Source: Acidobacteriota bacterium (GTDB lineage: Bacteria; Acidobacteriota; Vicinamibacteria; Vicinamibacterales; JAKQTR01). From it: a stretch of DNA of 47,877 bases. Shown here one piece after another: positions 4,077-24,489 of this stretch (positions are counted from its first letter, which is position 1; each line of letters begins with the position of its first letter). Position numbers and translations under genes: made by a program. The stretch lies in assembly GCA_026393755.1 (NCBI GenBank), contig JAPKZO010000033.1, forward strand, positions 1-47,877, given 5' to 3'. The notes under the pieces were generated by a model. The model saw only the letters and a list, made by a program, of their open reading frames with translations, was not told the DNA's origin and did no database searches.

Positions 4077-5651
4077 CTACGGGAGCCGACCGTGGCGGGC
4101 GCCCCAGGTTCTGAGGGTCTCAGCTCGCGCCTCCGCCTCAGGTTGCGTGGTAAACCGATCGACCGCCCATGGCAGCTTCCACGTCCAGTTGACCGCATCG
4201 ATGACGGCGGGCACGTTGATGCGGTTGGTCCAGCCAAACACATCCTGGATGGGCAATACGAGCAGGTCGGATCCCGATGCGTAGAGCGCCTCGAGCAACT
4301 GGTCGCGCAAGGCGGGTCCAAACCCGGCGCCGGCATCGCTTGCCGTCGCCCCGGTCGCTGTCAGCACGGCGGTCCGCACGTCCGTGTCGAGCCTGTTCCA
4401 CCACGCTGCCAGCGTGTCGGTGTCGTGCGTGCCGGACGTCGCCACCGAGCACGCCGGGTAGTTGCACGGATCCCTGAACGGGCGCCCGGGAGCGAGCCAT
4501 TCACGTTCCCACCTCAGCACTCGGTATCCCGGGATGTTCAGCGTGCGAAGCGCCGCGCGCACGAAATCCGGGATTGTGCCCAGGTCTTCGGCCACCACAT
4601 CGGCGCCGCCGGCCATCAAGACCTGCAACACCGCCTGCCCCTGGAGGATCTGATCGGCTTCGGCAGACGGCAGGAAGTGGGGCGGCCGATCGTCGGGCGG
4701 GAACATCCATGTGCGGAACAGCCCTACAACATGATCGACGCGATAACCGTCGAACAAGTCGGCGGCGCGGCGCGCACGCGCCGCGAACCACTCGTACCGG
4801 CGGGCAGCCATCACGTCCCATCGATACATCGGCAATCGCCAGTTCTGCCCTTCGTCGCTGAACGCGTCGGGCGGCGCACCGATGGTGCCGTCAAACGAAA
4901 ACAGATCCTGGTGGGCCCAGACGTCGGCGCTGTCGGCAGAGACGCCAAACGGAAAATCGCCGAACACCCTGATGTCGCGGACCGCCGCCCGGGCGCTCTG
5001 CCACTGGTCGTGCGCGATCCACTGCAGATACTGGCGGAACAGGATTTCCTGGTCGAGGTCGCGCCGCGCACGAACCAGCGCCTCGGGATCCCGGTCGCGA
5101 ATCCCCGCGGGCCAGGCCTGCCACTCTTTTCCGCCGGCGACGTATTGCAGGGCGCGATAGAGCGCGTGGTCGTCTAGCCACCAGCGCTGTTCGTCGGCAA
5201 ACCGTCTGAGATCGGCCGCTCTCGCGGAGTCGCGCGCCCATTCCTCCACGCGGAACCGCTCGAACGCGGCCCTCAGCGCACCGGACTTGATCGCCCGCAC
5301 GTGGCTGTAGTCGACCCGCGTCGCGGCTTTCACGTCGGCGAGCATGTCACGCGATGCCGCATCGAGGGCCTGTTCGCCGCCGAGGACGTCGAAATCGGCA
5401 ACGGCCGGAACCGCAATGAAGATGGGATCGAGCGCCAGCGCGCTCGTAGCCGAATAGGGCGAGCTCTGGCCCGCGGCCATTTCGTTGAGCGGCAGCAATT
5501 GCAGCAACCGCAGTCCGGCGTCGCGCATCCACCCCGCCAGTGCCGGCACGTCCGGGAACTCCCCAATTCCCCAACTGTGTGTCGATGGACACGAGGAGAG
5601 CGGAACCAACAGCCCGGCCAGGCGCCCCGTCCGGCTCCGGCCACCCGTCAC
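4077..5651 (-). CDS. malQ: 4-alpha-glucanotransferase (GH77, amylomaltase)
   Basis: A 524-residue cytoplasmic enzyme that transfers alpha-1,4-glucan segments between maltodextrins, releasing glucose. The GH77 barrel is complete: HSWGIGEFPD near 25-34, SSPYSATSALALDPIFI at 64-80, GDFPFGVSADSADVWA at 231-246, nucleophile Asp306 in GYRVDHVVG, acid/base Glu355 in VAEDLGTIP, and Asp410 in SGTHDTDTLA. Length fits the short bacterial amylomaltase type. The GTG start shares four bases (GTGA) with the stop of the aminotransferase gene, so the two are translated together. No other glycogen genes are next to it. The functional link with the aminotransferase is unclear. Confidence 0.95.
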   Translation of the reverse strand: MTGGRSRTGRLAGLLVPLSSCPSTHSWGIGEFPDVPALAGWMRDAGLRLLQLLPLNEMAAGQSSPYSATSALALDPIFIAVPAVADFDVLGGEQALDAASRDMLADVKAATRVDYSHVRAIKSGALRAAFERFRVEEWARDSARAADLRRFADEQRWWLDDHALYRALQYVAGGKEWQAWPAGIRDRDPEALVRARRDLDQEILFRQYLQWIAHDQWQSARAAVRDIRVFGDFPFGVSADSADVWAHQDLFSFDGTIGAPPDAFSDEGQNWRLPMYRWDVMAARRYEWFAARARRAADLFDGYRVDHVVGLFRTWMFPPDDRPPHFLPSAEADQILQGQAVLQVLMAGGADVVAEDLGTIPDFVRAALRTLNIPGYRVLRWEREWLAPGRPFRDPCNYPACSVATSGTHDTDTLAAWWNRLDTDVRTAVLTATGATASDAGAGFGPALRDQLLEALYASGSDLLVLPIQDVFGWTNRINVPAVIDAVNWTWKLPWAVDRFTTQPEAEARAETLRTWGARHGRLP

Positions 5652-6820
5652 TCGCTGGCCTCCACCCGGGCGAGCACCCGGGCGATTGCGCGGTCGAACA
5701 CGTCAGGAGGAGGGAGCAGGCTGATGATGAGGAAGGCCTCTCTCGGGAAGTCGAAGAAATATCCGGGGTGCACCAGGACGTGATCGTGCTCGAGGATGCG
5801 GAGCACGAGCGACTCCTCGGACTGCATGGCCGGCACCTGCATCACGGCATACCAGCCGCCCTCTGACGCCAGCACGCCCACCGACGGGCAGGAGCCCGAG
5901 AGCGTCATGACGCTTCGGTAATTACGGGTGATTCGATCGCGAATCTGTGATCGAATCGACGCGCCTTCAACGAGCAGCGTCGGGAGCGCCTCCTGAACGG
6001 GCGTGGAGACCGACAGGTAGGTGTCGCAGATGAGTTCCAGGCGTTCAAGCGCGGCCTTCACGAGGGCGTCGGGGCCGTTGACGACCATCCACCCGAGCTT
6101 CAACTGCGGCAGGCCCAGCGACTTCGACAGTCCACCGAGGCCGAATGTCAGCGCCTCGCGCTGGGCCAGCACCGACGACACGCGCGGCAGTTCGACGTCC
6201 AGCACGTACTCCGCAAACACCTCGTCCCCGATGATCGCGATGTCGTGCGCCCGGCAATGCGCGGCCAGCGGCGCCAGGTCATAGCGCGACAGGTAGGATC
6301 CCGTCGGATTGTTGGGGCTCACGATGACGACGGCGCGGGTGCGCGGCGTCGTTGCCCGCTTGATGGCATCGACATCGTAGGCCCAACGCCCGTGAAAGTC
6401 GAGACGGTACGGTCTCGCCTCTACGGCATCGAGCGACGCGAGGTACTGGAACAGCGGGTAGCTCGGCACCGGCACGAGCACTTCGTCTCCCGGGTCGCAG
6501 AGCAGCTTGAACAATAGCGAATAGGCTTCGCTCGTGCTTGCCGTCAGCACGACTCGATCGCGCGAGATGGCGAATCCACGGCGCCGATAGTCGTCCACGA
6601 CGGCCTGCCGCGCGGCCGGCCGGCCGAACGCCTGAGGGTGGTAGCTGAGCGCCGCTGGCGCCGCAAGCGAGTCGAGCAGCCGCGCAGGATACGTCAGCCC
6701 GACCACGGTCGGATTGGATTCCGTCAGATCGTCGATCTCGACGTCTGCACTACGCAGACGCGTAATCGCCGCCGACAGGCGGTTGGGAGCGAGATCAGAA
6801 GAGAGCCGAGAGGAGAACAC
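5648..6820 (-). CDS. class I/II pyridoxal-phosphate aminotransferase
   Basis: A 390-residue fold-type I aminotransferase. Visible landmarks are DLTESNPT (31-38), the NNPTG motif at 170-174, Asp199 (IIGDEVFAEY), and the PLP-binding Lys233 in GLSKSLGLPQLKLGW, with an Arg in the C-terminal domain for the substrate carboxylate. It would move an amino group between an amino acid and a 2-oxo acid in the cytoplasm. The closest match I recall is the group of PLP-dependent aminotransferases starting with the FSSRL-NRL-DLTESNPT pattern; the amino acid used is unknown. The start is GTG 6820, where the family's N-terminus begins. The ribosome binding site is weak. First gene of a two-gene operon with malQ. 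Confidence 0.9.
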   Translation of the reverse strand: MFSSRLSSDLAPNRLSAAITRLRSADVEIDDLTESNPTVVGLTYPARLLDSLAAPAALSYHPQAFGRPAARQAVVDDYRRRGFAISRDRVVLTASTSEAYSLLFKLLCDPGDEVLVPVPSYPLFQYLASLDAVEARPYRLDFHGRWAYDVDAIKRATTPRTRAVVIVSPNNPTGSYLSRYDLAPLAAHCRAHDIAIIGDEVFAEYVLDVELPRVSSVLAQREALTFGLGGLSKSLGLPQLKLGWMVVNGPDALVKAALERLELICDTYLSVSTPVQEALPTLLVEGASIRSQIRDRITRNYRSVMTLSGSCPSVGVLASEGGWYAVMQVPAMQSEESLVLRILEHDHVLVHPGYFFDFPREAFLIISLLPPPDVFDRAIARVLARVEASE

Positions 6821-6874
6821 GGTTGGTGTCAGTTACTTTACAACGACGCGCCGACGATGACGAAGGAACATTCA

Positions 6875-6895
6875 AGGGGACGCGAAGGAACCGTC
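6875..6895 (+). repeat. 21-nt dispersed repeat, copy 1
   Basis: These 21 bases (starting AGGGGACGCGAAGG) are identical to the reverse complement of 38149-38169. Both copies are intergenic. This copy lies in the 122-base gap between the symporter stop and the aminotransferase start. Otherwise I see nothing in this gap except a possible minus-strand -10 (TAAAGT, near 6836-6841). Confidence 0.75.
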
Positions 6896-6942
6896 TTCCC
6901 GCTGGCCGCGGACTGCACGCGAGGGGCAACAGGTAGGAATGA

Positions 6943-8640
6943 TCACGCTTGTCGCACCGGCTGTGGTTCGGTCAGACTCAACAGCGTCCCCACCACCACG
7001 ACGACGACGGCGCCGACCACGTTGTGCCAGAGGAAGGCGATTGTCGTGAAGTTCGCCACCGCGGCCACCGCCGCCATGCCGGCGATCAGGCCCCAGAAGG
7101 CACCGCGGCTGGTCGCCCGCCTGATCCCGATCGCGAGGATGAACACGCCGAGCAGCGAACCGTAGAAGAACGATCCGAACCGGTTGACCACTTCGATCAG
7201 CGATCCCAGACTCGCGGCGTAGATCGCCACCGTACACGCCACCAGGCCCCAGAATCCCGTTGCCAGCTTCGACACCAGCAGATAGTGCGCATCGGGCGCG
7301 GTCTTCCTGATGTGCCGGCGGTACACGTCAATCACCGTGGCTGTCGCGAGCGCGTTCATCTCGCCGGCGCTCGCGGACATGGCCGCCGCGAAGATGGCCG
7401 CGATAATCAGCCCGACCAGGCCGACAGGCAGTCTCGTCGTGACGAACGTCGGAAACACGTAGTTGACGTCGTTGTACTTGGCGTCACCGGTCACGTCTTT
7501 CACCAGCGCGGCTGCCTTGGCCCGCGTGTCCTTCACCCGCGCTTCCGACGCGACGAACGCGCGGCTGGCCTCGTCGGCGCGCGCTCGATCACCGCTCCGC
7601 TCCCCCTCGGCCAGCGACATCGCCGCCTGCCGCCGCACATTGAAGGCGGCCGTAAAATCCTGGTCGAGCTGCGCATATTCCGCCGCCCGGGGGCTGGCCG
7701 CGACCTTCGCCTTGAAGACCGGATTGAAGAGCATCGGCGGCTGGTTGAACAGGTAGAAGACGAAGACCAGCACGCCCACCATCAGAATGAGCGCCTGCAA
7801 CGGGATCTTGACGTAGGCGCTGATCATCAGCGAACTGCGCGCCTCGTCCACGGACTTCGCCGTCAGGTACCGCTGAACCTGGCTCTGGTCGCACCCGAAG
7901 TACGACAGCATCAGGAACAAGCCGGCAATCGTGCCCGACCAGAAGGTGTACTGCTCGTGGAGCGTGAACGAGAAATCGATCGTGCGCAGCCGGCCCACCG
8001 AACCGGCGATGTGCATGGCTTCGCCGAGCGACACGTCGTGCGGCAGCCCGATGATGAGGGCCACCACGGCCGCCAGCACCCCCGAGATCACCACGACCAT
8101 CTGCTTGACGTCGGTCCACGCCACGGCCTGCACGCCGCCGAACATGGTGTAGAGGGCGGTCGGCACGCCAATGGCGAGCACGGTCAGGTACAGGTTCCAC
8201 CCGAGCACGATCGAGAGGATCACGGCGGGCGCCGAGATGATGACGCCGGTGGACATGCTCCGCGACGCCAGAAACAACAGGCTCGCCAGGGCGCGTGTTT
8301 TCGCGTCGAATCGCCGCTCGAGGTACTCGTAAGCCGTGTAGACGTGCGCCCGATAGAAAAACGGCACGATCGTGACCGACAGGATGATCATCGCAATCGG
8401 CAGCCCGAAGTAGAACTGCACGAAGCGCATCCCGTCGGCGTACGCCTGGCCCGTCGTCCCAACCAGCGTGATGGCGCTCATCTGGGTGGCCATCACCGAC
8501 AGCCCGGCGGCCCACCACGGCAGGCTGCGGTTGGCCAGAAAGTAGCCTTCCACCTGATCCGCCGATTTCGTCCGCTTCAGGCCGTCGTAGACGATCCAGA
8601 GAAGGTAAGCGGCGATGATGGCCCAGTCGATGGCGCTCAT
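6943..8640 (-). CDS. sodium:solute symporter (SSS family)
   Basis: A 565-residue inner-membrane protein with about 13 hydrophobic segments and the SSS core: [20 protein letters not shown] near residues 38-57, LERRFD (107-112), the [15 protein letters not shown] signature at 248-262, and [20 protein letters not shown] near 417-437, the likely Na+-site helix. It should import a small organic solute with Na+; the solute cannot be named. Residues about 303-398 form a hydrophilic, alanine/arginine-rich insert between two membrane segments, absent from short members such as PutP but seen in SSS proteins of this kind from related bacteria. ATG 8640 overlaps the stop of a 47-residue membrane peptide gene (ATGA), implying coupled translation. 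An in-frame start 30 bases upstream is less likely. Confidence 0.92.
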
Positions 8641-17618: not shown

Positions 17619-18544
17619 GTGCGGCCTCCCTCCAGTGGTGCCGCGTACTCGGCCCCCGGCCCGGCAATTCTCACGAAAATATCCTGCAGCGACGGCCGGG
17701 TCACTTCAAAGTAGGTGACGCTGGTCGTGGCCGCCAGTTGCTGCAGCAACCGCTGTGGATCTCCCTGGACGCGGAGCTCCTGCATGTTTCCGAGGTCGTT
17801 GACTGATTCAATGCCGGGCAGGCCGGCGAGTGCCCGAACGCCGGCCTCGCTTCGAACCCGGATCGTGTCGGCCCCATACGCGGCCTGGATCTCGTTCAGG
17901 GTGCCATCGAGCACCTTGCGCCCCTTGAGGATCATGAAGATGCGGTCGCACATCTGTTCGGCCACGCGCATGTCGTGCGTGCTGAGCACGATGGTAGTTC
18001 CCCCGCGCCGCAGTTCGAGCATCGCGTTCTTCAGAACGTCGGCATTGACCGGATCGAGCCCCGTGAACGGCTCGTCGAGAATCGCGAGTTCGGGTTTCGC
18101 CACCACGGCCGCGATGAACTGCACCTTCTGCGCCATCCCCTTCGACAACGCGTCGATGCGCCGATCCGCCCAGTCGGCGAGCCCCATCGCCTTCAGCCAC
18201 TCGCCAATCGATCGGTCGATCTCGGCCGCGCTCCGCCCTTTGAGTTGCCCGTAGTAGCGCAGGAGGCGGCGCACGGTCATCTTCTGGTAGAGCCCGCGTT
18301 CTTCCGGCAGATAGCCGACGCGGTCGCGCGCCGCCGCGGTGCCGTCATCGCCCAGCACTTCGACGCGGCCCTCGTCCGGCAGCAGGATGCGCATGATCAT
18401 GCGCAAGGTGGTGGTCTTTCCAGACCCGTTGGGCCCGATGAATCCGTAGATGCAGCCAGGCGGGACATCGAGCGAGACAGCATTGACCGCGGTCACCGCG
18501 CCAAAGCGCTTGGTGACGTCGCGAAGGCTGATCGTGGCGTCCAT
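17615..18544 (-). CDS. ABC transporter ATP-binding protein
   Basis: A 309-residue cytoplasmic ATPase that powers the partner permease. Walker A GPNGSGKTT at 37-45, a YLPEERGLY segment at 79-87 (Glu at the usual Q-loop position, frequent in NatA/YhaQ-like ATPases), signature LSKGM at 133-137, Walker B AILDEP at 154-159 and switch His190 (STHDM). A C-terminal extension (about 215-300) is typical of drug/Na+ exporter ATPases and carries the DUF4162-like region. Its stop overlaps the permease start by four bases; it starts six bases after the zinc-ribbon gene. The exported compound is unknown. Confidence 0.93.
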   Translation of the reverse strand: MDATISLRDVTKRFGAVTAVNAVSLDVPPGCIYGFIGPNGSGKTTTLRMIMRILLPDEGRVEVLGDDGTAAARDRVGYLPEERGLYQKMTVRRLLRYYGQLKGRSAAEIDRSIGEWLKAMGLADWADRRIDALSKGMAQKVQFIAAVVAKPELAILDEPFTGLDPVNADVLKNAMLELRRGGTTIVLSTHDMRVAEQMCDRIFMILKGRKVLDGTLNEIQAAYGADTIRVRSEAGVRALAGLPGIESVNDLGNMQELRVQGDPQRLLQQLAATTSVTYFEVTRPSLQDIFVRIAGPGAEYAAPLEGGRT

Positions 18545-18550
18545 GGCGGC

Positions 18551-18991
18551 TCAGGACTTGAACAAATCGTCGAAGGCGCTGCGGGCGGTCGTCTGCCGCA
18601 CGGACCCGGTCTCGCGTTCGACGGTCGTGCGGGCCTCGAACAGCTCGCAGACGTTGAAAGCGTCCTTGGGCGCCACACGAGCGGTGATGGGCTGCATGCA
18701 CTCGAACCGTGCGGCCGGGTTGAACGATTCACACTGCGCGCAGCAGTGCAGCGGCGACGCGCATTTCGCGCACGTCGCCTTCGACAGAATGCCGCCGTCG
18801 GTCACGCAGCCGCATCGATGACATCGCACGACGGCGCGGAATCCCGGCATGTTGGGCGTGCGCGGGCCTTCCGGGCGGTCCGCCGACTTGGGCCTGGCGG
18901 CACCATTGTCGCCGGCCTTCGGCCGGGCCTGCTCCCGGTCCCGCGAACCGTCATCCTGGTAACCGCGCTGGCGGTATTTGCGATCACCCAT
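18551..18991 (-). CDS. zinc-ribbon protein, first gene of the ABC operon
   Basis: A 146-residue soluble protein. The first 55 residues are charged and probably disordered (MGDRKYRQRGYQDDGSRDRE...). A cluster of cysteines follows: CHRCGC, CAKC, CCAQC, then FNPAARFEC, enough for two zinc sites. The last 40 residues contain an acidic/basic helix and end FDDLFKS. I recognise the pattern from conserved hypothetical proteins of Acidobacteriota but know no function. ATG 18991 has a strong AGGGAGG eight bases upstream; the frame is open further up, but that part lies in the divergent promoter region. The six-base spacing to the ABC ATPase gene argues for co-transcription and perhaps a regulatory or redox-sensing role. 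Confidence 0.75.
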   Translation of the reverse strand: MGDRKYRQRGYQDDGSRDREQARPKAGDNGAARPKSADRPEGPRTPNMPGFRAVVRCHRCGCVTDGGILSKATCAKCASPLHCCAQCESFNPAARFECMQPITARVAPKDAFNVCELFEARTTVERETGSVRQTTARSAFDDLFKS

Positions 18992-19388
18992 GACACGTGC
19001 CTCCCTGTCGATCGTCAGACCAGGAGAATCCATCTGGCGACATCGGCGCACAGGGGCTGGCGTGGTAACAGCGGGCGGGGCCGCAGCAGGAGCCGCAGCC
19101 ACATGTGGCCCGTGGCGGCCCACTGTATCACAAGGATTCCTGCAACCCAGGCTGGCTGCACTTCGGGGAGCGCCCGGAATGCGTTCTTCGCGGAACGCGT
19201 CTCCTCCGTGTCCCCGCTCGCGGGCGATCCTTCGACGGGGACGGGAAGCGAAGCGCCGCGCCACCCGACGTTCGTCTCTGGACGGTTTTCGGTGGCGTGA
19301 ACGCGCACGCCGCGTGGTATAAGAAAGAGACGCGCGTCTTCAGTCCGACTAACCCCCAGAAACGACCGACGTCGAGTGGAGCGGTGCC
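18992..19388. other. divergent intergenic region between zinc-ribbon operon and Mg-transport operon
   Basis: 397 bases with no supportable gene. Minus-strand frames are open by composition. One minus-strand frame (about 19000-19110) contains a Cys-rich run (TCGCGSCC...) but has no start codon after an in-frame stop. The right end carries the extended -10 for the MgtE_N gene. No Mg-sensing riboswitch could be recognised by eye, though the length would allow one. Confidence 0.5.
19315..19323 (+). promoter_or_regulatory. extended -10 promoter of the MgtE_N/Nramp operon
   Basis: TGGTATAAG: a TGN extended -10 with five of six matches to TATAAT. Transcription would start near 19330, giving a leader of about 59 bases before ATG 19389. 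The -35 region is poor. Confidence 0.45.
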
Positions 19389-20636
19389 ATGGCCGACAGC
19401 CTGCTCTTCCTCACCGAACTGATGGGCATGAAGGTCTACGACCTGAAGGGCCGGAAGATCGGCCGCCTTCGGGACGCCTGTCTCGTGCCCAGCGTCGATC
19501 CCGTCATCGTCGACCGGTACCTGGTTGGCGGAGAACTGACCTGGTGGACCGTCCGCCAGGACCAGGTGGAGCGGATCTCGCTCGACGGCATCTACCTCCG
19601 CGACGAGCACCTCACGCCGTACCACGAAGACGAGTACATGCTGCGGATGGTGCGCGATCTGCTCGATCAGCAGATCATCGACATCCACGGCCGCAAAGTC
19701 GTCCGCGTCAACGACGTGACCTTCGAGCTGAGGCACGCGAACAGCCACGATCAACTCTGGGTGCTCGAAGTCGACGTGGGCGTCCGGAGCATTTTCCGCC
19801 GCCTGTGCCAGGGTATCCTGCCGCCGCGGCTGGTTCGCCGGATGATGATGCGCATCGCGCCGAACTCGATCCGCTGGGAATTCTGCAACATCGTCGAGCC
19901 AGACCCGCAGCGCCGGCTTCGGCTCAATATCGACATGAAGGCGCTGGAAGGCATCCACCCGGCCGACCTGGCGGACATCGTCGAGGAACTCAGCCACGAG
20001 GACCGGGGGGCGGTGTTCGCGGCGATCGACAGCGAGGTCGCGGCCGACACACTGTCCGAGGTCGAGGATCCGCGCACGCAGGCCTCAATTCTCGAATCCC
20101 TCGAGGCCCATCGCGCCGCTGACATCGTCGAGGAGATGGACCCCGACGAGGCTGCAGACGTGCTGGGAGAGATGGGGGACGAGAAGTCGGAAGCCATTCT
20201 CGACGAGATGGAAGCCGAACCCAAGACGGATGTCGAGGAGTTGCTGGAGTTCGACGAGAAGTCGGCCGGAGGCATGATGACGAGCGATTTTGTCGCCGTC
20301 GCCGACACCGGAAATGTATCCGACGCGATGGTGTTGGTCCGCGAACAGGTCGAGCATATCGACACGCTCACCAATATCTTTCTCGTCGACGCCAACGGCC
20401 GGCTTACCGGGTCGCTGCCGGTGGGACGGCTGCTGCTGGCAGAAGGCCCGACACTTCTGTGTGACCTTGCCATAGACGACGAGGTCGTGTCGGTGGCCGT
20501 CACTGAACGCCGCGATCGCGTGACCGAGATCGTGGACAAGTACAACCTGATGGCCCTGCCCGTGGTGGACGAGCGCGGTGCGCTCGTCGGCGCGATTACG
20601 GCGGACGACATCATCTCGGTCCTCAGGCAGGAGTAG
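19389..20636 (+). CDS. PRC-barrel / MgtE_N / CBS-domain regulatory protein
   Basis: A 415-residue soluble protein. Two PRC-barrel-like segments span about 12-70 and 90-140 (KVYDLKGRKIGRLRDACLVP and DIHGRKVVRVNDVTFELR). The MgtE N-terminal superhelix follows at about 188-293 (GIHPADLADIVEEL, DIVEEMDPDEAADVLGEM, KSAGGMMTSDF), then two CBS domains at about 297-350 and 355-413 (MALPVVDERGALVGAITADD). In MgtE channels this acidic superhelix-CBS unit binds Mg2+ and closes the pore, but here the MgtE membrane part is missing. The next gene, five bases on, encodes an Nramp-like transporter, so this protein probably senses Mg2+ (or nucleotide) and gates that transporter. GGAG precedes the ATG. Domain calls are secure; the partnership is inferred. 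Confidence 0.87.
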   Translation: MADSLLFLTELMGMKVYDLKGRKIGRLRDACLVPSVDPVIVDRYLVGGELTWWTVRQDQVERISLDGIYLRDEHLTPYHEDEYMLRMVRDLLDQQIIDIHGRKVVRVNDVTFELRHANSHDQLWVLEVDVGVRSIFRRLCQGILPPRLVRRMMMRIAPNSIRWEFCNIVEPDPQRRLRLNIDMKALEGIHPADLADIVEELSHEDRGAVFAAIDSEVAADTLSEVEDPRTQASILESLEAHRAADIVEEMDPDEAADVLGEMGDEKSEAILDEMEAEPKTDVEELLEFDEKSAGGMMTSDFVAVADTGNVSDAMVLVREQVEHIDTLTNIFLVDANGRLTGSLPVGRLLLAEGPTLLCDLAIDDEVVSVAVTERRDRVTEIVDKYNLMALPVVDERGALVGAITADDIISVLRQE

Positions 20637-20640
20637 GCGC

Positions 20641-21894
20641 GTGCGGCTTCTGGATCGTCTGCCTCGCCGTCTCCTGCTCTTCTTCACCGTCATCGGCCCT
20701 GGCTTCGTGACGGCCATGGTTGATAACGACGCGGGCGGCATCTATACGTACTCGCAGGCTGGCGCCAGATTCGGCTACATGATGCTCTGGACGCTGCCGC
20801 CGATCGCGCTCCTGCTGGTGGTGACGCAGGAAATGAACGCGCGCATGGGTGCGGTCACCGGCAAGGGCCTGTCGGACCTGATTCGCGAGGAATTCGGCCT
20901 GCGGACGACGTTTGTCGTGATGATTCTGCTGGTCCTGGGGAACTTCACGAACGTCGTCGCTGAGTTCGCTGGCGTCGCCAGCGCGCTCGAGCTGTTTCAC
21001 ATCAGCAAGTTCGTGTCGGTGCCGCTTGCCGCCCTCGCCGTCTGGCTGCTTGTCGTCAAGGGCACCTACGCGAGCGTGGAGAAGATCTTCCTCGGCGCCT
21101 GCGTGGTGTACATCGCCTACATCGTGGCGGCCGTGCTCATCAGTCCGGACTGGGAGGCCTCGGCGCTGGCCAGCGTCAAGCCCGTGCTCCTGCTGGATGC
21201 GGCGTACCTGACGCTGCTCGTGGGGCTGGTCGGAACCTCGATCGCACCGTGGATGCAGTTCTATCTGCAGGCGGCGGTGGTCGAAAAGGGCATCACCATC
21301 AAGGACTACAAGGAGTCGCGCGTCGAGGTCATCGTCGGCTGCATCGTCATGGTCGTGGTCGCGTTCTTCATCATCGTCGCGTGCGCCGCGGCCATCTTCA
21401 AGACCGGGCCGCGGGACATCGGCAACGCCGCCGAGGCGGCCAAAGCGCTCAGACCATTCGGGGAGTACGCCTACCTGCTGTTCAGCGCGGGATTGCTCAA
21501 CGCCTCGCTCTTTGCGGCCAGCATCCTGCCCCTCTCGACCGCGTATTCAGTCTGCGAGGGCCTGGGATTCGAATCCGGCGTGAACAAGCGATTCCGCGAG
21601 GCGCCGATCTTTTACTGGCTCTACACCGGCCTGATCGTGCTGGGCGCAGGCGTGGTTCTGATGCCAGACTTCCCGCTCATCAAGATGATCCTGTTCTCGC
21701 AGGTCGTCAACGGCGTCCTGCTGCCCGTCATCCTGGTGTTCATGATCAAGCTGGTCAACAAGGCCGACCTGATGGGCGATTGGGTCAATCCTCGCGCCTA
21801 CAACGTGATCGCGTGGGTCGCCGTCGTCGTGCTCGCCGCCCTGACCTTCGTGCTGACGGGCCTCACGATTCGCGACATGTACTTCGCGGGGTAG
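20641..21894 (+). CDS. Nramp-family divalent-metal transporter, non-canonical (possible Mg2+ type)
   Basis: A 417-residue inner-membrane protein with 11 predicted helices of the Nramp fold. The canonical metal-site motif in helix 1 (Asp-Pro-Gly-Asn) is here Asp30-Ala-Gly-Gly (VDNDAGGIYTYS), and the helix 6 Met-Pro-His motif is Ala202-Pro-Trp-Met (SIAPWMQFYLQ). The helix 6 methionine is what normally favours Mn2+/Fe2+ over Ca2+/Mg2+, so its loss suggests an alkaline-earth substrate, as in NRAMP-related Mg2+ transporters. The GTG start follows the MgtE_N-CBS stop by four bases with GGAG within the preceding gene. Fold assignment is firm; Mg2+ is an inference supported by the neighbour. Confidence 0.85.
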   Translation: MRLLDRLPRRLLLFFTVIGPGFVTAMVDNDAGGIYTYSQAGARFGYMMLWTLPPIALLLVVTQEMNARMGAVTGKGLSDLIREEFGLRTTFVVMILLVLGNFTNVVAEFAGVASALELFHISKFVSVPLAALAVWLLVVKGTYASVEKIFLGACVVYIAYIVAAVLISPDWEASALASVKPVLLLDAAYLTLLVGLVGTSIAPWMQFYLQAAVVEKGITIKDYKESRVEVIVGCIVMVVVAFFIIVACAAAIFKTGPRDIGNAAEAAKALRPFGEYAYLLFSAGLLNASLFAASILPLSTAYSVCEGLGFESGVNKRFREAPIFYWLYTGLIVLGAGVVLMPDFPLIKMILFSQVVNGVLLPVILVFMIKLVNKADLMGDWVNPRAYNVIAWVAVVVLAALTFVLTGLTIRDMYFAG

Positions 21895-21948
21895 CGCGCC
21901 GGGGAGAATTGGCGTCTGCCACCAATCCTCGTCGCCGTGCCGGCGAAT

Positions 21949-22029
21949 GGCAGGGGCAGCCACAGAGGGCCGCCCCTGCGAAATCCCGTCTCGGAGGCGC
22001 GGGGGGCACCCCCTGTGGTTGCCCCTGCC
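21949..22029. repeat. imperfect 21-bp inverted repeat between convergent genes
   Basis: Arms 21949-21969 and 22009-22029 pair with three mismatches (GGCAGGGGCAGCC... against ...GGTTGCCCCTGCC) around a 39-base loop. It fills most of the 150-base gap between the Nramp stop and the M28 stop. The position suggests a bidirectional terminator, and the sequence looks like a REP-type dispersed element; only one copy is present here. Confidence 0.7.
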
Positions 22030-22044
22030 AGAGAGTAGATCGAT

Positions 22045-24489
22045 CTACTGACCACCTCTCGCGGCTGGCGCCGGCGAGAAGCGGCTCAGGTTGCTCTGGC
22101 CCGGCGCGCCGCCCGATCCCGCCGCGGCAACACCCACCATGGTATTGATTTCATCCTGGGTCCACTTTGCCTTGACGAGCGCCAGGTACAGCTTCCGCGT
22201 CGCGTCGGCCCGATCTCTGGACGCACCCATCGACAGCAGCAGATTGTTCTTCCCCACGGCCGTCGCCGACATTCCGAGCTTCTTGACGCAACCGTCAATA
22301 TCCGCCGGGTCGCAGACAACGATGGCCACGGCCTTCTTCGCCTTGAACTTCTCTGCGAGGGCTGCGTCCATTGCGCCAGGCTCGGTCACCATCAGAGGCT
22401 TCTGCGCGTTGTCGAGTACGTCGCCGAGCAGACCAGCCTGCGGCCGCACGAGATTGACCACGATGTTGGCCGCCTCCATCGCCTTCAAGGCCGCCTTGCC
22501 GTCGGTCGTCAGTCTGTCGCCAAACCACGCGCCGTCCGGCCCGGCGACGTCGATACGGCCGAAACTCAGCAGCGTCGCCGCGGCTTCCATCGTCTCGATG
22601 CTGCCCTGGAACACGCCAGGACCGCGGACGCCGCTGGTGTACCTGGCCCCGCCGCCGCCTCTGCCCCCACGCCCGCCGGCCGCCGGCATGGCGCTTGCGG
22701 CCTGCATTTCCCGGATCCGCTGCGTCATCGCGGTCATCAATTCCGCATTGGTGGACGCCCGCACAAACGACCAGCCGCCGCCGCCGCGCCCGCTCCCGCC
22801 GCCCCGGGCCCCGGCCCCGCCTTCGCCCGCCACGTCGGGCACGACGAATCGCTGCGAGTTGTACTGATCAAGCCGGTCGGCGATGATCAGGTTGGTCTCG
22901 GTCTCGTTGGCCACATTCAACGCACCCTGCAGGACAAACTGCCCGGTCCATCCCAGGACGTCCGCCTCGATCTTCGACGGGTCATCGGTAGAGTCGTGAT
23001 AGTCGGGATGGCCGCCGCGGCCGGCCGTCATCAGCCCGAGCGCCTCGATGCCGCGCGAGATGAACGCCGAGTAGTCACTGCCGCCCGGACCGGCTTCGGT
23101 CGCATCCACGATCTTCGCGACGGCCGGATCCTGGTCCTTCATGATCACCTTGAAGATCGACGGGAAGTTCAGCGCGCCCGCTGCGCCGATCCGATCGCCG
23201 AGGCCAACCATGTCCATGTTGAAGTTGGTCACGACCGTGTCCATCTTGACGCCGTCAGTCGGGTTGTCGGCCCAGTAGTTCGAACCGAGCAGCCCCTGTT
23301 CCTCGCCGCACCACAGGCCGAAGATGATCGTTCGCTTCGGCTGCACCTTGTTGAGGGCCATCAGGCGCGCCACCTCGAGCACCACCGCCGACCCCGACGC
23401 GTTGTCGTCGGCGCCGTTGTAAATGACGCCGTCGCGAATGCCGTTGTGATCAAGATGGCCGCCGAGGACAACGTACTGCGCTTTCAGCGCCGGGTCGGTG
23501 CCCTCGAGTTTCGCAATCACGTTGCGGGCGAAGTTGTTCTTGAACGCAGCGCCGTAGAGAGAAGTCGACGTGTACCCCTTGATCTGGACCAGCTTGCCGG
23601 TGCGCATCGAATGCGCCTTTTTGTTCTTGATGTCCTGCCGGTAGAGGCCGATCCGACGGCCGTAGGCGTTGGCCGATTCCTGCGGGTCAGTCCACATGAT
23701 CGCGTCGAAGACGGGCTTCGCGATGTTCGTGACGTAGAGAAAGGCGGTCTTGAATGGCGAGGGGCCTGCTGCTGCACCCCGGCCGCCACCGCCACCGGTT
23801 CCAGTCGCCGGCGCCGACGGATCGTAGAGCATGATGCCGGCCGCGCCCTTTTCGTAGGCGTTCATGGCCTTCTTCTGATCAGCCGACTCGTCAGCAAACT
23901 CGTCCTTCGCACCGGCCGCGGGCGCCGTGCCCCCCACGCCCGGAGGCGCAAACTGCACGCGCACCGCGGGAGCCGCCATCGGCGATCCCTTCAGTGCAAC
24001 GACGACCTTTCCTTTGACGTCGATGCCGGCGTACTCGTCAAGGCCTTTGGCTGGCGCCGAGATGCCATACCCGACGAACACGACCTCTCCGTTCGCCACG
24101 GCGCCAGGCGTCGACAGGGGGCTGACCGTAAAGTCGCCCTCGCGAAGCTCGAAGGCCCGGCCGCTGATCGCCAGACTCGGCGCGCCGGTAGTCCACACTA
24201 ACGTTGAACGCGCGCCGCTGATGATCACCTTCTGGAAGTAGGTGCCGTTCTCGCCCGCCGGCTTGAGGCCCCATTCCTTGAACTTGCCAGCCGCCCACTC
24301 GGCCATCTTCTCGTACCCGGGCGTCAGGGTTCGACGGCCCTGCTGTTCGTCGGCCGCGAGAAACGCGATGTAGCCCTTGATGATCTTGCCATCGACCTTG
24401 ATCTTCGTCGGTTCGGCGGTCATGCGCACGGACGAGACGAGGGCCAGACATACGGCCAACGCGAGCGATAGACGGGTGCTTCGACGCAT
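22045..24489 (-). CDS. exported M28-family zinc aminopeptidase with PA domain
   Basis: An 814-residue exported protein: signal peptide about 1-25, helical prodomain-like region, PA domain inserted at about 120-260 (GEVVFVGYGISAP, GKVVVALKGSP), and the M28 peptidase core at about 320-535. The two-zinc site is complete: His345 (GGHLDHNG), Asp361 (NGADDNASG), Glu396-Glu397 (CGEEQGLLGS; catalytic base and ligand), Asp426 (NFNMDMVG) and His498 (YHDSTDD). It should release N-terminal amino acids from peptides outside the cytoplasm. A Gly/Arg-rich linker (about 565-580 and 615-630) leads to a C-terminal region of about 170 residues that I do not recognise. It is downstream, with a 128-base gap, of the BNR propeller gene on the same strand. 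Confidence 0.93.
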   Translation of the reverse strand: MRRSTRLSLALAVCLALVSSVRMTAEPTKIKVDGKIIKGYIAFLAADEQQGRRTLTPGYEKMAEWAAGKFKEWGLKPAGENGTYFQKVIISGARSTLVWTTGAPSLAISGRAFELREGDFTVSPLSTPGAVANGEVVFVGYGISAPAKGLDEYAGIDVKGKVVVALKGSPMAAPAVRVQFAPPGVGGTAPAAGAKDEFADESADQKKAMNAYEKGAAGIMLYDPSAPATGTGGGGGRGAAAGPSPFKTAFLYVTNIAKPVFDAIMWTDPQESANAYGRRIGLYRQDIKNKKAHSMRTGKLVQIKGYTSTSLYGAAFKNNFARNVIAKLEGTDPALKAQYVVLGGHLDHNGIRDGVIYNGADDNASGSAVVLEVARLMALNKVQPKRTIIFGLWCGEEQGLLGSNYWADNPTDGVKMDTVVTNFNMDMVGLGDRIGAAGALNFPSIFKVIMKDQDPAVAKIVDATEAGPGGSDYSAFISRGIEALGLMTAGRGGHPDYHDSTDDPSKIEADVLGWTGQFVLQGALNVANETETNLIIADRLDQYNSQRFVVPDVAGEGGAGARGGGSGRGGGGWSFVRASTNAELMTAMTQRIREMQAASAMPAAGGRGGRGGGGARYTSGVRGPGVFQGSIETMEAAATLLSFGRIDVAGPDGAWFGDRLTTDGKAALKAMEAANIVVNLVRPQAGLLGDVLDNAQKPLMVTEPGAMDAALAEKFKAKKAVAIVVCDPADIDGCVKKLGMSATAVGKNNLLLSMGASRDRADATRKLYLALVKAKWTQDEINTMVGVAAAGSGGAPGQSNLSRFSPAPAARGGQ

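Follow-up and report, generated by a model that had tools for sequence, protein, structure and literature searches.

Two adjoining genes in an acidobacterial contig (JAPKZO010000033.1, positions 1 to 47,877, called the window below) probably work together as a single Mg2+-uptake unit in place of the MgtE channel, with an importer of the NRAMP-related Mg2+ transporter (NRMT) type that a detached MgtE-type sensor would brake in trans. The first gene encodes this putative sensor, termed the regulator here, which carries PRC, MgtE_N and CBS domains; the second, separated from it by a gap of 4 bases, encodes the transporter.

The pairing and the idea of feedback in trans have already been published, and the window pair is known in kind. 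According to the portions of Shin et al. 2014 (PMC4072509) on which we draw, a separate gene resembling the MgtE cytoplasmic domain lies beside most nrmT genes, an acidobacterial example being A. capsulatum ACP2976/2977; trans or cytoplasmic feedback by this fragment was speculated on, and its role beside NRMTs was left open. The window pair shares with that system the transporter clade, its DxxG-TxxA/T site and the adjacent homologue of the MgtE cytoplasmic domain, whereas PRC barrels are not mentioned in the consulted portions of the published descriptions. No paper linking a PRC barrel with MgtE, or with CBS and a magnesium transporter, was found in the open-access literature, a body that leaves out most subscription journals. 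New in this work are the residue counts, the co-retention of the two genes even where they are unlinked, and the low frequency of MgtE in genomes with the pair; co-retention and the scarcity of MgtE (not of CorA), taken with the conserved PRC module, make a specific, testable case for a carrier gated by a detached channel sensor. If the proposal is true, one Mg2+ sensor serves a channel in cis and, in trans, a secondary transporter. Since uncoupled Mg2+ import could lead to overload of the cell if there were no feedback, the answer bears on bacterial Mg2+ control without MgtE.

Co-occurrence of the regulator and transporter genes

The same 247 genomes of the window's phylum were searched with the regulator and with the transporter, and cut-offs were placed at gaps in the scores after these had been seen (at least 300 bits for the transporter, at least 160 bits for the regulator). 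Transporters at this level were found in 55 of the 247 genomes (lowest score 345.9, next 249.6) and full-length regulators also in 55 (lowest 165.4, next 138.5); the two sets of genomes were identical, with 0 discordant cases. Both match lists ended at weak matches, and weaker homologues lie outside the counts. In 38 of the 55 genomes the regulator precedes the transporter on the same strand (gap of at most 60 bases in 11, 61-300 bases in 9 and 300-10000 bases in 18), and in the other 17 it lies far off or on a different contig.

Lower-scoring Nramps (190-300 bits) gave 23 matches in the same genomes, at least 11 of which are paired as well: nine have an adjoining regulator in transporter-first order, and two apparent loners (L102, L103) each have a regulator when the locus is read. 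One of the remaining 12 was read, another Nramp of the window's genome with the motifs DPSG/TTISPY (L107 4050-5354, on G000:C18), and no regulator was found in the surrounding 9.5 kb. The pairs in reversed order (clade B) form one group in both protein trees (9/9, FastTree support 1.0 and 0.999); rooting of the regulator tree was not used, the MgtE outgroup probably being in the wrong frame, and this grouping does not depend on it.

A second phylum, that of a deltaproteobacterial metagenome-assembled genome (G257), was represented by 198 genomes, in which a score of at least 300 bits with a Pelotalea query defined a window-type NRMT and Nramps from G271 (181.7 bits) downward were left out. Full-length regulators were present in 41 of the 42 genomes with a window-type NRMT, the exception being G257 itself, whose NRMT ends at a contig edge; regulator matches were listed down to about 188 bits, and more divergent ones may exist. 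Three more regulators adjoin other Nramps, two of 249-255 bits and an 85-bit fragment in G308 that was counted owing to its neighbour, bringing the totals to 45 transporter and 44 regulator genomes. The regulator comes first in 29 of these 45, the transporter first in 3, the genes are convergent in 6 and on different contigs in 6, and one genome has no regulator. Overall, the pair thus occurs in three arrangements: regulator first, transporter first and convergent.

A wider scan of a genome collection with an NRMT alignment confirmed at least 580 loci, of which the best 80 were kept, a sample that leans to close relatives. A regulator lies in the flank in 60 of the 80, on the same strand and upstream in 58 and in convergent orientation in 2; in 7 of the 60 the available stretch ends within the regulator and shows only part of it, and L185 (64 bits) is the weakest match or nearly so. 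A search through all contigs of the remaining 20 genomes found a full or near-full regulator elsewhere in 16. G252 retains just a C-terminal piece, located at a contig edge. In G257 and G258 nothing beyond short CBS-type matches was found, and in both the NRMT reaches a contig edge or lies no further than about 300 bases from one. In G253 the regulator appears as two adjoining pieces (G253:C41:136767-138009; positions 7-253 and 251-416 of the model), which may reflect a frameshift or a split of the gene comparable to the one reported for C. acetobutylicum (PMC4072509).

Eight plasmids carry a place that covers at least 80% of the regulator. In every one of them an Nramp match lies no more than about 500 bases away, and both gene orders occur; the pairs that were read come from Alicyclobacillus, Citrobacter, Leifsonia and Rhodococcus and span three classes (Bacilli, Gammaproteobacteria and Actinomycetes). 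In a ninth plasmid, from Mycolicibacterium and just under the 80% limit, an annotated Nramp adjoins the regulator. An MgtC/SapB gene lies near the plasmid pairs of Leifsonia (L214) and Mycolicibacterium (L229), and a heavy-metal P-type ATPase and an ArsR-type regulator lie near that of Citrobacter (L213).

The survey strengthens the functional link of the pair considerably. A sequence-only reading of the window had proposed looking for strict co-occurrence or fusion of the two families, and had named free separation as an outcome that would refute its proposal of gating in trans. Strict co-occurrence was found in both phyla. The genes do part in position, but for the window type of transporter no genome was found with one and without the other except at contig edges. 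Reading the loci revealed no natural fusion; L112 and L118 have long frames, which are overlapping ones.

Distribution of MgtE and CorA

The MgtE channel domain (PF01769, E 0.001 in the window's phylum, curated cut-off in the second) is scarce in genomes that carry the pair. In the window's phylum it was matched in 146 of the 247 genomes, namely in 8 of the 55 pair carriers versus 138 of the 192 others, with 0 matches in the window's genome; in the second phylum it was matched in 117 of 198, in 3 of the 45 NRMT genomes versus 114 of the 153 others, and in G374, a further NRMT genome, the match stays below that threshold. CorA, used as a control in the window's phylum only, shows no such pattern (34/55 pair carriers versus 118/192 others). 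Fisher's test gives P values of 1.7e-14 and 6.5e-17, which ignore relatedness and so overstate the certainty; the agreement of two phyla together with the CorA control is the better argument. Neither MgtE nor CorA was detected at these thresholds in 19 of the 55 pair genomes, including G143, a sister of the window's genome. The second phylum also contains a weaker MgtE-family group with short frames of about 326-350 amino acids (e.g. G283:C7, G405:C49 and G390:C6), which may be MgtE proteins that lack a sensor domain of their own.

Identity of the transporter

The transporter is a member of the Nramp family (PF01566, 303 bits in Pfam) and scores 119 bits against NF001923, under the cut-off of 430. 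Among PDB sequences, phmmer gave 7qia as the best match (1.6e-110), followed at 1.1e-25 by an MntH-labelled chain that we take to be DraNramp. 7QIA is EleNRMT, which moves Mg2+ and is not proton-coupled, and the consulted portions of the same paper (eLife 2022, PMC8806188) define the NRMT signature as DxxG in helix 1 plus TxxA/T in helix 6, with the helix 6b histidines replaced by residues unable to take protons. The window protein (DAGG and TSIA) fits this signature and is close to EleNRMT (DAGG/TTIA); in its helix 6b the first His is replaced by Trp and the position five residues on is Leu, or Gln if the HMMER gap is accepted. The canonical MntH motifs DPGN and Met-Pro-His are not present in it, their places being taken by DAGG and TSIAPW. 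Both DAGG and Ala-Pro-Trp had been pointed out by the sequence-only reading as departures from the canonical metal motifs; they are there, yet they are not mere losses but belong to a described clade signature (PMC8806188). In the FastTree phylogeny the window protein and EleNRMT share one large group with weak support (0.15), and the weak basal supports give no firm position for EleNRMT or for the solo Nramp of the window's genome. Membership in the NRMT clade is supported by the motif and by the best PDB match.

The window's genome has four Nramp-family matches in all, including one canonical protein (DPGN/ATVMPH). A subgroup of NRMTs (L026, L168, L169 and L196, two of them in records named Acidobacterium) carries DPNG/TTIAPW, nearer to canonical DPGN; if the A. 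capsulatum transporter also has this motif, it might account for the preference of that protein for Mn. L195 possibly has tandem NRMT genes (4501-5730 and 5861-7120), judged from open reading frame (ORF) coordinates only.

Domain structure and conserved residues of the regulator

Pfam matches MgtE_N at residues 189-291 (89.9 bits) and CBS at 363-412 of the regulator, finds no channel domain PF01769 in it, and scores PRC barrel 1 by a partial match (PF05239, residues 7-29, 28.2 bits against a cut-off of 21.2); the score against TIGR00400 (136 bits) is under its cut-off of 232.75. An AlphaFold2 model built on an alignment of 47 regulators (A2) reached a predicted local distance difference test score of 89.9 and a predicted template modelling score (pTM) of 0.63, and it shows in order two beta-rich modules (strands 5-70 and 95-162), the MgtE_N helices and the CBS pair. 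In a fold search the Thermus MgtE cytosolic domain (2yvy) superposed on this model with Z 26.2 over 230 residues at 2.3 A. Pfam, the missing PF01769 and the model thus bear out the earlier description of PRC, MgtE_N and CBS parts without a channel.

That description also counted two PRC barrels as an unexplained third module. Two modules are likely, although Pfam scores the first alone: PRC2 of the window protein has no PF05239 match, while a comparison of the PRC1 and PRC2 profiles by hhalign gave a probability of 51 (P 1.5e-4 for a single comparison) and neither profile matched MgtE_N. The fold search returned folds of MgtE and of CBS proteins; the lack of a PRC entry in its list carries no information on the PRC modules, and PRC2 was barely covered by it. 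The PRC-type modules are a constant part of the regulator, the second more conserved than the first. Pfam PRC was matched in 40 of the 47 proteins of A2, and MgtE_N plus CBS in all 47. In this set the mean entropy is lowest for MgtE_N (1.41 bits), followed by PRC2 (1.69) and PRC1 (2.35), and 38 of the 50 near-invariant columns fall within PRC2 and MgtE_N, with one in PRC1.

For residue counts, 63 regulators were aligned with the channel TtMgtE (41 of clade A outside family f28, 14 of f28 and 8 of clade B); site and pocket names follow the consulted portions of the TtMgtE literature. Five PRC2 residues (D98, V107, D109, R137 and W163) are identical in 63/63. Among the putative Mg2+ sites, the Mg4, Mg6 and Mg7 positions are acidic in the window regulator and Mg5 is lost: D220, D253 and D257 align with E59 (Mg7), D91 (Mg4) and D95 (Mg6), D407 with D247 (Mg4), and N386 and S410 occupy the acid positions of Mg5 (D226/D250). 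The Mg6 residue D95 is kept as Asp in 40/41 clade-A regulators outside f28, 14/14 of f28 and 5/8 of clade B, and the Mg7 position is acidic in 34/41, 14/14 and 7/8, respectively. In the putative ATP pocket V207 is kept (V367), while F227, R187, D188, Y170 and N203 are replaced by Leu, Gly, Arg, Asn and Asp (the first three at L387, G346 and R347). Clade B regulators keep R187 in 8/8 and an aromatic residue at F227 in 7/8, and ATP binding may therefore persist in this clade. Compared with TtMgtE as a whole, the regulator shares MgtE_N, the CBS pair and the acids named above, but it has no channel domain, differs at Mg5 and in most of the pocket, and has two N-terminal PRC modules added.

Proposed mechanism and alternative explanations

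We propose that the NRMT protein would carry Mg2+, and probably also Mn2+, inward down the gradient without proton coupling. With a negative membrane potential, an uncoupled Mg2+ carrier would lead to overload unless braked. The soluble regulator would dock on the cytoplasmic face of the carrier, probably via its PRC modules and with contact through PRC2; at high cytosolic Mg2+ its MgtE_N and CBS parts would close up and the carrier would be slowed. The same domains close MgtE in cis, and the pair would be the same solution in trans. Of the sequence-only proposal of a Mg2+ importer gated in trans, the gene link stands firmly and NRMT membership stands on the motif and the EleNRMT match, and the gating itself stays conditional. 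A broader generalization can be offered tentatively: the sensing half of MgtE could be a free-standing, obligatory gating subunit of an unrelated LeuT-fold carrier with the PRC module as its adaptor, so that one sensor closes a channel in cis or brakes a transporter in trans depending on the lineage, and lineages swap the two systems.

Several observations weigh against a Mg2+-gated importer. The A. capsulatum transporter, from the one acidobacterial pair tested there, fully rescued a Mn-transport mutant and gave Mg rescue only at low millimolar Mg, and the MgtE fragment added nothing to the Mg rescue (PMC4072509). NRMT site residues installed in EcoDMT gave no Mg2+ transport (eLife 2022, PMC8806188), and the motif alone is therefore no proof of it. 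Among the aligned regulators, the Mg5 pair is acidic at both positions in just 3 of 63 (3 of clade A outside f28, 0 of f28 and 0 of clade B), both Mg4 residues are Asp in 34 of 63 (20/41, 14/14 and 0/8, respectively), and most putative ATP-pocket residues are altered in the window protein. An upstream M-box is described for a subset of nrmT pairs, the A. capsulatum pair being without it (PMC4072509), and Rfam hits up to E 1 over 18400-22200 did not include one around the window pair. The presence and absence counts are not corrected for phylogeny, and 8 genomes of the first phylum and 3 of the second keep both systems. Finally, a model of both proteins joined into one chain, with the stop read as glycine, is only suggestive of contact: its pTM was 0.69 versus 0.63 for the regulator alone and lies somewhat above our own estimate of about 0.55 for independent halves, but this is weak and the short linker biases it.

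Some of these points would suit a manganese or broad divalent importer whose sensor responds to Mn2+ and not to Mg2+. Shin et al. 2014 (PMC4072509) suggested that the fragment may respond to Mn, which agrees with the A. capsulatum rescue, and the loss of the Mg5 acids in most regulators and the EcoDMT result point the same way. We nevertheless consider this explanation unlikely, since the site of the window transporter is near that of Mg2+-transporting EleNRMT, the pair avoids genomes with the MgtE Mg2+ channel in two phyla whereas CorA shows no such pattern in the first, and the canonical Nramp of the window's genome is fit for Mn2+. Less probable still is a regulator that serves as an activator, chaperone or assembly factor for a stable NRMT with no Mg2+ brake. 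Strict co-retention suits any obligate partner, and the most constant parts include PRC2, beyond the sensor domain; however, NRMTs function alone, as the C. acetobutylicum gene complements without the fragment (PMC4072509) and EleNRMT was purified by itself (PMC8806188), and the parts that gate MgtE were matched in every protein of A2. It is very improbable that shared ancestry alone keeps the two genes side by side while each has a separate function, such as a different target for the sensor: 17 of the 55 first-phylum pairs are unlinked and unrelated genes such as a glycosyltransferase intervene in family f16, but even unlinked genes share the same 55 of 247 genomes, three arrangements preserve the pair, and plasmid pairs occur in three bacterial classes.

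Gene layout and neighbouring features

Coordinates of the two genes and their parts are collected in Table 1. The listed Nramp ORF (20578-21894) runs into the regulator gene, whose stop TAG is at 20634-20636, and the GTG at 20641 is the likelier start of the transporter.

Table 1. Features of the regulator-transporter locus in the window
Feature	Positions	Strand	Basis
Regulator gene, PRC1-PRC2-MgtE_N-CBS pair without channel domain, 415 amino acids	19389..20636	+	ORF, Pfam, model, fold search
PRC-type barrel 1, residues 1-86	19389..19646	+	Pfam PRC partial; model strands 5-70
PRC-type barrel 2 (likely), residues 87-168	19647..19892	+	model strands, profile comparison, conservation
MgtE_N domain, residues 184-290	19938..20258	+	Pfam, TtMgtE alignment
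CBS pair, residues 291-415	20259..20633	+	TtMgtE alignment
NRMT-type Nramp transporter gene, 417 amino acids, GTG start (likelier) 4 bases past regulator stop	20641..21894	+	
Helix 1 metal-site motif DAGG (DxxG)	20728..20739	+	
Helix 6 metal-site motif TSIAPW (TxxA; Trp replaces first His)	21235..21252	+	

No credible RNA element was found by Rfam near the window pair (18400-22200), and 12 related loci gave nothing but one tRNA at gathering thresholds. Directly 3' of the transporter gene (21946-22040) lies a strong imperfect inverted repeat with Rfam scores far under gathering; a genome search on both strands returned only its own place, which at that sensitivity argues against a dispersed repeat.

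In family f16 a glycosyltransferase gene (Pfam) sits between the regulator and the transporter, and other spacer genes are GMC- and aldo/keto-like, judged from the sequence start only; such spacer genes are taken as insertions. Family f28 (L091, L093, L094 and L095) has a homologous gene 3' of the NRMT, which in L093, where it was scanned, encodes a channel of the MscS type that carries a cyclic-nucleotide-binding domain.

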